Part shown: one piece after another, positions 14,424-17,324 of the stretch
How the letters are laid out: each line of letters starts with the position of its first letter
How positions within the stretch are numbered: position 1 is the stretch's first letter
Assembly (NCBI RefSeq): GCF_021155765.1
Contig: NC_060112.1
Location: 11,470,001 to 11,534,000 of the forward strand
DNA: 64,000 bases
Direction of reading: 5' to 3'
From: Diprion similis
Lineage: Eukaryota; Arthropoda; Insecta; Hymenoptera; Diprionidae
Notes under the pieces: model-generated
The model's database searches: none
Told to the model about the DNA's origin: nothing
What the model saw: only the letters and a program-made list of their open reading frames with translations
Position numbers and translations under genes: made by a program

Positions 14424-14548
14424 TGCCCTAGCTTGCGCCAGGGACTGTAAAAAATTGGTCTTATAGACTCATCAAGTTGTTCCCCTCCACGGAAATCTTT
14501 AGTAAAAGGCGAAAGATTTATTCGTATGTTGAAGGGAAACCAGAGTAC
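14424..14548 (-). ncRNA. U5: U5 spliceosomal snRNA, copy 1
   Basis: The minus strand reads as U5 snRNA: TACTCTGGTTT at the 5' end, then the long stem closed by the invariant loop 1 (AATCTTTCGCCTTTTAC then TAAAGATTT), the sequence CCGTGGAGGGGAACAA, an Sm site AATTTTTTA (14456-14448) and a 3' hairpin with a 7-bp stem and GCAA loop (14443-14426). In the U5 snRNP, loop 1 aligns exon ends during splicing. This copy differs from the other two at both sides of one internal stem (C at 14535 and G at 14484 in RNA sense, in place of U and A), a compensated pair, which argues it is functional. A candidate proximal promoter element lies at 14581-14606. The exact ends are estimated from known U5 RNAs. Confidence 0.94.
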
Positions 14549-14580
14549 TTATCGAGGCTACCAGGCAGGTTAATATTTAT

Positions 14581-14606
14581 ATCGAGGCTATACTTTTGTT
14601 GCGAGA
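14581..14606 (-). promoter_or_regulatory. Proximal sequence element (PSEA-like) of U5 copy 1
   Basis: On the minus strand, about 33-58 bases upstream of the U5 start, the sequence begins TCTCGC, contains AAAGTA and ends CCTCGAT. Copy 2 has the same layout at the same distance (16094-16069), although the intervening flanks differ. This fits the PSEA that recruits SNAPc to insect snRNA genes. A second ATCGAGGCTA word on the plus strand at 14551-14560 repeats its outer end. Confidence 0.65.
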
Positions 14607-15890
14607 GTCATCGTCTGCACCCGGCGCCTAGTGGCAGGCAGTGGCACTGTTGCCTAAGTCAGTCGCCTGCCTTACCGTGGTGCCAACAACGATTCCATTG
14701 CCGCGTTTCTGCCACTCGGCATCCTACTTACCGATCGAAGATACTCATGTCGACTATACGGCTGTACAGTTGTGAGATTGCGTCATGCTTGCGAATAGGT
14801 TCTTTCGCGATCAGTAGACATGTTACGATGGTATATGTATAGGTATACGTGCCTACGTTATAATGTTATATTAGACGAGCACTTATATTTCAGAACTGCA
14901 GCGCATTGGTTGTGATATTTTTGGTAATAAGGCCAAAATAAATTAACGGAATATTTAGAAAAGGCTAAGAAATACTAAGTGACAAATTTTCATTATAAAT
15001 TTTCTCAACATTTTATTAAAGTCATCTGTAGGTCTGTTACATTTGAATATTTAAATTTAATATTTCTAGATTTTTACTAGGTTGTATTCAATCTAATTTG
15101 AACGAAATTAAGAATAGTTTAAAGCACCTGATTTTATTTCCAACTCAACTGACACTAATCCAGAATCTTGACGTTGAATTCATGTGACAATATTTTTCAA
15201 TTCTTATAATGGCATTCTAGTGATCGCTTCATAAAATAGTTTCTTAACAATTGTGGTTTGGTCTCAGTAGGCCAGAATGAACATCAAAATCAGGGTTAAT
15301 TATTAATCATTGACAATGCGATAATTACATTTGCATGCATGCTTTTTATATTGCTATTTTTAATCGATAATTCTGGTTAATTGTTGATACAACAATAATA
15401 TTTCGTTTACCGGTAGTGGCTTGAAAATTAGATATTTATTTCTATATCGGTGAACCTCATTTTATTTCAATTGTTAATTTTTGCTTATTTAGTATTTGCT
15501 TCAATTTTTCATTAATTGAAAAAAGAAAATACATGACCCAATTATGTTTGGTTCCTTTACCGTATACGCATGTTGAAGTTATTTTATGTAAAGACTCCAA
15601 TGAGGATTGAAAAAGATGCGTGTTGTTTTGTGCATGAGGAATGAATTGTTTCATACCCCATAATAATGCCCAATCATGGCACTGTGTGAAAACTCGAGCA
15701 TTTACTAAACCAATCTATTTTAAATTTAAATTCAGCACGATTCTGATCATCAACTTTTGTCATGATGTTTATCATGGTTTGTTGAGTCCATTTCGTAACA
15801 CTGGATGCATAATCGGTTCTCACGATCATGATCATACATTAACGTGGAAAAAGGTCCCATTGCCACAGGACCCAAATATGGCTAGCTAGA
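14607..15890. other. Spacer between U5 copies 1 and 2
   Basis: No gene recognised. Short inverted words (GTGCCA/TGGCAC) occur around 14345-14395 and 14630-14690. The open frames at 14477-14842 and 15641-15889 partly overlap U5 or AT-rich sequence and are not supported. Confidence 0.5.
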
Positions 15891-15900
15891 ATTCTGTTTG
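15891..15900 (-). promoter_or_regulatory. Candidate snRNA 3' box of U5 copy 2
   Basis: CAAACAGAAT on the minus strand, about 11 bases beyond the 3' hairpin. It shares AAACAGAA with the corresponding position of copy 1. Confidence 0.4.
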
Positions 15901-15910
15901 ATATCGATTA

Positions 15911-16035
15911 TAGTCCCAGTTTGCACCGGGACAACAAAAAATTCGAGTTATAGACTCATCAAATTGTTCCTCTCCACGGAAATCTTTAGTAAAAGGCGAA
16001 AGATTTATTCGTATGTTGAAGAGAAACCAGAGTAA
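15911..16035 (-). ncRNA. U5: U5 spliceosomal snRNA, copy 2
   Basis: The minus strand has the full U5 layout: TACTCTGGTTTCTCTTCAAC at the 5' end, loop 1 GCCTTTTAC closed by AATCTTT/AAAGATT, CCGTGGAGAGGAACAA, Sm site AATTTTTTG (15943-15935), and a 3' hairpin with an 8-bp stem and GCAA loop (15932-15913; GTCCCGGT with ACTGGGAC, one G-T pair). A clear PSEA-like element lies upstream at 16069-16094 and a 3' box downstream. This copy carries every expected element and is the most canonical of the three. Confidence 0.95.
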
Positions 16036-16068
16036 TTTGGTAAGTCACGTCGGTCAGGACTAGGCATG

Positions 16069-16094
16069 ATCGAGGTCTTACTTTCAAAGCGAGA
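16069..16094 (-). promoter_or_regulatory. Proximal sequence element (PSEA-like) of U5 copy 2
   Basis: On the minus strand, TCTCGC, then GAAAGTA, then CCTCGAT, starting 34 bases upstream of the U5 5' end. Spacing and key words are the same as in copy 1. Confidence 0.65.
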
Positions 16095-17199
16095 AATTAC
16101 AGGCTCGACAGCCGCCTGGCGACGATGAATTGTACTAGGCATAGTTAGCTCAATCGCTCCTCCTTCGTGACGTCACCAGACCGTTACAAACTCATTGATG
16201 CCACGTACCCCAAGGGCAGGGACATCTGGTTGAAAAAAAGGAAGAGAAAAGAAATAAGATAATACGGTTTTTCGCATTTTATATATGCAAAAGTTCTGCG
16301 AGCGTTTATTAGGCGCGATACATGAATTTTCATTTTGCAACTTCTCAAAAGAGAGATAGAAAATTGAAAAATAAATAATAAATTTTAGACATAAATAAAA
16401 TCATTAAAAATAAATAAAATTAATACTCTAAAGAGTTATATATAAAAGAAAGAATTATATAATAATAAAAAGTTTGTACCATTTTAACTTGATCGGAAAT
16501 AAATATAATGTCCACAAGAATTGAAGATTGAATAAAAAATTTTATTTCGCTTATTATATTTGAGATTTGTGTGCTCCGCTATCGAAACTCTTAAATGTTG
16601 AGCCTTGACTGGAAAGTTCCTATAATGAATCAATGACTTACAACTCACTGATAGTTTGTGCCGTTTTGGACTAACCAGGATCTTCATTTTCCTTCCATCT
16701 AGACCGCACAAAACTTGACAAATAAATTTCTTACTTATTTGTGTATTGAAAATTTAAGACTGCCTAGTTACACGTGATATTGTGGCTACGCCCATTTTTG
16801 TAATAATAACTGAAGGTACTATTTATGTCCGAAGCCAACTGAACAAGCGCAGAAAACTTCATAGAAATTAACATATAGCGCTCGTAATAAGAAGTCTTAG
16901 AGCCTGAAACTGCACAGTGTTGCACATCTACCTTATTATAAGCGGATTGCCGAAAATATGTTGGCTAAATCGAGTGACCTCCTGTACAGACCACCGGATG
17001 GATTTGTCGACCCATTAAGATTCCCCTCAACTCATTGTGAACATAGAAAAGAAGTCCAAACATTTTTTCGACTAGGCATCCATTACGATCGGCGTGGATG
17101 TTCTCTTGGCAGATCCAAGATATTAGAATAATTCTAGAAATGGTTTTCGAGCAACATTGTGCCTGAATTTTATGTGGGAATTATATTTGTTATAATTAA
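16095..17199. other. Spacer between U5 copies 2 and 3
   Basis: Very AT-rich from about 16255 to 16560, with no gene recognised. The minus-strand open frame at 16484-16711 has no supporting signal. Confidence 0.55.
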
Positions 17200-17324
17200 T
17201 AGTCCCAGTTGTAACTGGGACGTTGAAAAATTTGAGTTATAGACTCATCAAATTGTTCCTCTCCACGGAAATCTTTAGTAAAAGGCGAAAGATTTATTCG
17301 TGTGTTGAAGAGAAACCAGAGTAC
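17200..17324 (-). ncRNA. U5: U5 spliceosomal snRNA, copy 3
   Basis: The minus strand is nearly identical to copy 2 through the 5' stem, loop 1 and the CCGTGGAGAGGAACAA segment, with one loop-proximal change (CACACG for CATACG). The Sm-type site is AAATTTTTC (17233-17225), with a C where the others have G or A at the end. The 3' hairpin (17221-17202) has a fully paired 8-bp stem GTCCCAGT/ACTGGGAC with loop TACA, so the G-T pair of copy 2 is A-T here. The upstream region lacks an obvious match to the PSEA-like element of copies 1 and 2 (only a weak TCCCGGAAGAAAA-type resemblance near 17360-17380), and the 3' box is less clear. The RNA body looks intact, but promoter activity is uncertain. Confidence 0.87.

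Follow-up and report, generated by a model that had tools for sequence, protein, structure and literature searches.

Three linked U5 snRNA genes in Diprion similis, with a decayed neighbor and a distant relative

Introduction

When several copies of one small nuclear RNA (snRNA) gene lie side by side, do all of them work, how did they multiply, and what keeps their RNAs alike? These questions are raised for U5, one of the standard RNA components of the spliceosome, by a 64,000-nucleotide stretch of the Diprion similis genome (C8:11470001-11534000, referred to here as the window). The genome has 103 matches to PF02949, an odorant-receptor family not known outside insects, and is by this measure an insect's. 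Multi-copy, diverging U5 genes are already known from flies and mice, according to the portion of Lu and Matera (2014, PMC4291461) available to us, which counts seven distinguishable U5 genes in Drosophila melanogaster and describes fly U5 as the most diverse snRNA family, with expression that shifts with stage. A literature search, whose reach did not extend to the older insect surveys, found no paper on tandem insect U5 snRNA genes. Mount et al. 2007 and Hernandez et al. 2007 are reportedly surveys of insect snRNA genes or promoters.

Three full-length U5 genes lie in a row

Scanning the window against Rfam 15 with cmscan gave three matches to the U5 model RF00020, each covering the full model (positions 1-117 of 117). 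A search of the genome (269 Mb, 60 contigs) added a fourth intact gene. The four genes, with positions counted in the window unless a contig is named, are as follows.

17201 to 17324, minus strand: U5 snRNA gene copy A; RF00020 94.6 bits, E 2.3e-15; fold -34.7 kcal/mol, z -4.8
15912 to 16035, minus strand: U5 snRNA gene copy B; RF00020 94.2 bits, E 2.9e-15; fold z -3.3
14425 to 14548, minus strand: U5 snRNA gene copy C, the most diverged; RF00020 84.9 bits, E 3.7e-13; whole-RNA fold z -2.7
C8:14308313 to 14308436: U5 gene D, the fourth intact copy, found by genome search 2.8 Mb off on the same contig

The scores in the window compare with a gathering score of 40, and at E values of 4e-13 or better a chance match is ruled out as the source of the U5 calls. 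All three genes are on the minus strand, with start-to-start distances of 1,487 and 1,289 bases. A first-pass annotation had placed three full-length minus-strand U5 genes here, 1.3-1.5 kb apart, and had proposed an Infernal run with RF00020 as a check; the three matches bear this description out, and its coordinates are correct to within one base. The cluster of three that it described is real, but the array is bigger, since it has a decayed member, copy E, and an intact relative in D. Across the genome, the RNA model and three DNA searches agree on four U5 genes (A, B, C and D). The genome-wide RNA search scores the best candidates only, and decayed copies can escape it, as E did. A 46-base U5 stretch compared with viral contigs returned no matches.

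Loop 1 is invariant and the 3′ third varies

The description of loop 1 as invariant holds for every copy: alignment columns 30-56, which make up the loop-1 hairpin, show no difference among the four live genes, and all eight pairs of stem Ic are formed. Within the stem I domain, each of the 23 tested pairs is possible in 4/4 live genes, and the four outer pairs of stem I are replaced in the best structure of each of the four RNAs when folded alone. One stem I pair (columns 14-65) has changed on both sides in copy C, from U-A to C-G; this paired change is weak when taken alone because 122 of 500 shuffles reach it, and it is not significant on four sequences. The z values given above for A, B and C are from folding against shuffles, and the same comparison gave -3.6 for D and -2.0 for E.

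Folding gives the 3′ hairpin for each of the four live genes, so the earlier claim of such a hairpin in each clustered copy stands for 3/3. In copy C, the hairpin has seven pairs and a GCAA loop, is largely new in sequence, and has lost its outermost two pairs. An Sm site in each copy had also been proposed, and here the claim survives in part. The A-U run AAUUUUU(U), followed by a hairpin, is found in 4/4 live genes, but the terminal G after the U run (columns 100-101) occurs only in copy B, with C in its place in A and D and A in its place in copy C. Our search pattern caught ten U1/U4 genes and a single U2 gene while passing over four further U2 genes, and every gene that it caught has this G. 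Counting variable columns among the four live genes gives 7 of 89 in the 5′ part versus 16 of 36 in the 3′ third.

Each U5 gene has a PSEA at the expected distance

We trained a 21-base motif for the promoter element PSEA on the regions upstream of eight U1 and two U4 genes of the same genome, with U5 unused. Left out of the training were a third U4 match (L021), which is without such a motif, and two U6 genes. Every one of the ten training genes carries the motif between -58 and -61, and in the window the motif identified the following sites.

17361 to 17381, minus strand: PSEA of copy A, at -57; 14.3 bits, the window's third best site; P 0.0016
16074 to 16094, minus strand: PSEA of copy B, at -59; 14.8 bits, the window's second best site; P 0.0014
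14586 to 14606, minus strand: PSEA of copy C, at -58; 20.8 bits, the window's best site; P 0.0006

The ranks refer to both strands of the entire window, where the next site reaches 12.3 bits, and the P values come from 5000 random window stretches, possibly including the U5 promoters themselves. Gene D carries a PSEA at -57, with a P value inside the range of 0.0006-0.0016 set by the trio, and that of copy C is the strongest among the four U5 genes. Six U2 matches, on which the motif was not trained, provide a comparison: in five the motif lies at -59 or -60, though weakly in two (7.7 and 7.8 bits), and the match with the lowest U2 model score is without it. Neither U6 gene matches the motif. 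Because the available part of PMC4227766 places the Drosophila PSEA ~40-60 bp upstream, the position of the U5 motif fits that of an insect PSEA.

Two further elements were compared among the copies, a 3′ box, using a motif trained on 15 U1/U2/U4 genes, and a TATA-like box.

15892 to 15905, minus strand: 3′ box-like element of copy B, at +7; P 0.0006
14404 to 14417, minus strand: 3′ box-like element of copy C, at +8; P 0.0006
14574 to 14581, minus strand: TATA-like box of copy C, at -33; 8/8 match to TATAWAWR

The 3′ box is clear in B, C and D (P 0.0002-0.0006) and weak in copy A (P 0.009, with other spacing); dead copy E gives 0.014. As for the TATA-like box, copy C is the only one of the Pol II-type snRNA genes compared to have a perfect match, with A, B and D reaching at most 5/8 and the best of 17 U1, U2 and U4 matches reaching 7/8. 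The box lies near the position of the U6 TATA boxes (-31 and -30, matching at 8/8 and 7/8), which makes the polymerase of copy C less certain. Chance is a fair explanation, because 320 of 20000 random 30-base window stretches equal this box and some twenty promoters were examined. In Drosophila, U6 has a PSEA plus a TATA, and the TATA box acts on efficiency and not on the choice of polymerase, as stated in the part of PMC4227766 available to us. Judged by these sequence features, the three U5 genes in the row are probably working genes.

The live copies are related in their bodies more than in their promoters

Gene-body identity is highest between A and D (119/124), followed by B and D (116) and A and B (113), and it falls to 107-109 of 125 between C and the others. 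Within the trio, the bodies differ at 11-18 positions, with C differing from A at 18/125 and from B at 16/125. Upstream, A and D agree at 64/75 positions from -150 to -75 and at 51/76 from -75 to 0. The remaining upstream comparisons within A-D barely depart from chance: B-C (z 2.9 and 4.1, in the first 150 bases upstream) and C-D (2.5 and 1.9) give weak signals. The spacers do not align to one another beyond the gene and ~20 bases downstream, and the similarity of A and B reaches little further than the RNA and its 3′ box. The spacers were thus correctly called unrelated, apart from the weak B-C signal.

From unrelated spacers the first-pass annotation had concluded that the duplications are old, and this is where it went further than its evidence: the spacers are as it said, but age does not follow from them alone. 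Short duplication units are an alternative, because the U1 trio of the same genome combines near-identical genes with spacers that cannot be aligned. Tandem duplication, also part of that reading, agrees with U5 genes standing in a row, but in its plain form it is too simple because copy A is closest by promoter to distant D and not to its neighbors. Two other models could be ruled out: a whole-unit tandem array with homogenised spacers, by spacers that are not alignable and A-C bodies that differ as listed above, and a single recent tandem triplication, by promoters that are largely unrelated and the grouping of A with D.

A decayed U5 copy lies in the same array

Copy E surfaced in a repeat search, which picked out a fourth stretch similar to the 5′ end of U5.

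9538 to 9769 (about), minus strand: U5 pseudogene E with promoter, decayed; local alignment to B, -107 to +125

When the promoter of B was compared with 1158 tiles on both strands, the E tiles were the best after B itself, scoring 62 versus at most 34. Aligned to B, E has lost loop 1, the Sm site and the 3′ hairpin, and Rfam gives no U5 match at its place even at E 10. A weak PSEA-like remnant (4.6 bits) persists at -59. Identity to B is 73/103 (71%) in the promoter and 80/121 (66%) in the body, whereas the live copies keep 86-96%. E is on the same strand as the trio and within the same 8 kb.

Discussion

We are confident that A, B and C are three ordinary insect U5 genes of the Pol II type, predicted to be separate transcription units, and that duplication, decay and purifying selection would account for the array. 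From the sequences, folds, promoter motif, genome copy number and relic described above, we infer a scheme that extends to transcription, SNAPc binding, polymerase, snRNP assembly and duplication order. In this scheme, each gene would form its own transcription unit, with the PSEA ~58 bases upstream bound by SNAPc, and would yield an RNA of ~124 nt with the U5 fold, followed by the 3′ box (clear in B and C, weak in A). The RNA would join the U5 snRNP and hold exons via loop 1. The array would have grown as short units were duplicated, each a gene with at most a few hundred further bases, and shrunk by decay, with E as a dead member, while relative D would have moved or been copied 2.8 Mb away. 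Purifying selection would keep the live RNAs alike and let promoters, spacers and the sequence of the 3′ hairpin drift.

The earlier annotation left it open whether selection or conversion had kept the RNA bodies. We favor selection because the body of E decays like its promoter and the live bodies do not, and because the variable columns are concentrated in the RNA's 3′ third, where homogenising should work equally well, and linked E was left unhomogenised. That the bodies are alike mainly through gene conversion (concerted evolution), with selection secondary, appears unlikely to us, the more so as 18 of the 125 aligned positions separate C from A and 16 separate it from B. Conversion does have points in its favor: multi-copy snRNA families are said to evolve in concert in the part of PMC4291461 available to us, two U1 copies of this genome (L014 and L015) have identical genes and unalignable spacers, the A/B similarity stops close to where the RNA and its 3′ box do, and E may have escaped once diverged. 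A different account of the row itself is that U5 units were inserted separately into one favorable site, with no tandem duplication. Such insertions would fit three largely unrelated promoters and spacers, the placement of A's nearest promoter relative 2.8 Mb off, and the description of snRNA genes as mobile in the same portion of PMC4291461. We regard them as improbable, given that the trio shares one strand and a similar 1.3-1.5 kb spacing, that B and C retain weak upstream similarity (z 2.9 and 4.1), and that a B-type relic, E, lies on that strand in the same 8 kb.

Whether each member of the trio is alive can also be questioned, and copy C would be the likeliest young pseudogene: its score is ~10 bits lower, the outermost two pairs of its 3′ hairpin are lost and its Sm-site G is missing, and low-expressed U5 paralogs exist in flies according to the available text of PMC4291461. 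Its PSEA, however, is the best of the four genes, its 3′ box is good, loop 1 is intact, the stem I change is paired, and the hairpin has re-formed with seven base pairs and a GCAA loop, so that we consider a pseudogene among the trio very unlikely. Some of the same features (the new 3′ hairpin, the altered stem I pair, the strongest PSEA and the perfect TATA-like box) could instead be read as signs that the linked genes are functionally separate U5 isoforms, with C under different promoter control for use by stage or tissue and with promoter divergence keeping the copies. We think this reading, drawn from sequence, would probably prove wrong. Under the reading that we prefer, ordinary U5 genes shaped by duplication, decay and purifying selection, the locus shows the birth and death of snRNA genes cleanly and on a small scale, with three live copies, one dead and one distant relative. 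Promoter classes record a history that the spacers have lost, and relic E allows selection to be told apart from conversion more readily than the live copies do by themselves. Beyond this birth-and-death case, the U5 trio is routine annotation.

Comparison with other snRNA genes

Elsewhere in the genome we found eight U1, six U2, three U4 and two U6 matches, and since U1 and U2 are clustered too, the clustering of U5 is no exception. A U1 trio (C4:17364517-17372924) comprises three genes ~4 kb apart on one strand. Like the U5 trio, it has PSEAs at -58 and unalignable spacers; unlike the U5 copies, two of its members (L014 and L015) share identical RNA bodies, with the third differing at 3 of 162 positions, a pattern pointing to conversion or to duplication in very short units. 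A U2 quartet (C5:2998498-3006592) places four genes within 8.1 kb and resembles the U5 trio in its clustering and in its PSEAs at -59 or -60, one of them weak, but it is mixed in orientation where the U5 trio keeps to one strand. In primates, the RNU2 (U2) tandem array likewise links snRNA genes of a single kind. Homogenisation there extends to the entire repeat unit with its spacer, whereas the spacers of the U5 trio share nothing detectable.

The closest parallel is with flies. The part of Lu and Matera available to us describes a fly U5 3′ stem-loop whose structure is kept and whose sequence is not, and a mouse U5 whose variable part is likewise the 3′ end (PMC4291461). D. similis resembles D. 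melanogaster, as portrayed there, in having several distinguishable U5 genes and a 3′ stem-loop that keeps its structure while its sequence diverges. It differs in having four U5 genes in place of seven, with three of them within 2.9 kb, and the fly paralogs in that text are known by expression, whereas the copies here are known by their sequence.

A separate observation is an apparent gathering of snRNA genes on contig C8, where 11.48-15.40 Mb holds, within 3.9 Mb, all four U5 genes, two of the eight U1 genes (the lowest-scoring) and the lowest-scoring of the three U4 matches.

Neighborhood of the array

Upstream of both A and D lies a second element common to the two loci.

17755 to 17896, minus strand: block F, upstream of A and D; 79% identical over 142 bp to C8:14309658 to 14309799, minus strand

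These two copies of block F are the only ones found in the genome, and the sequence between the block and the U5 gene is unalignable. Block F has no Rfam match near threshold, no Pfam match and no match to the PSEA motif. A short reading frame starting MATVIPRLDSAGF is, by eye, partly common to both copies; the block's one PDB match is to a designed repeat protein and was taken as chance. Pfam searches with ten chosen ORFs of the window gave weak matches for two, the better of them, to an integrin EGF domain (E 0.0034), falling short of the cut-off.

Between E and the live array is a tRNA cluster (10687-13155) of four intact genes, tRNA-Ser(GCT) twice, tRNA-Lys(CTT) and tRNA-Asn(GTT). A decayed tRNA-Ser copy (10920-11000, plus strand) lies between the intact tRNA-Ser(GCT) genes at 10687-10768 and 11710-11791, a further example, within the same 10 kb, of genes being born and dying.
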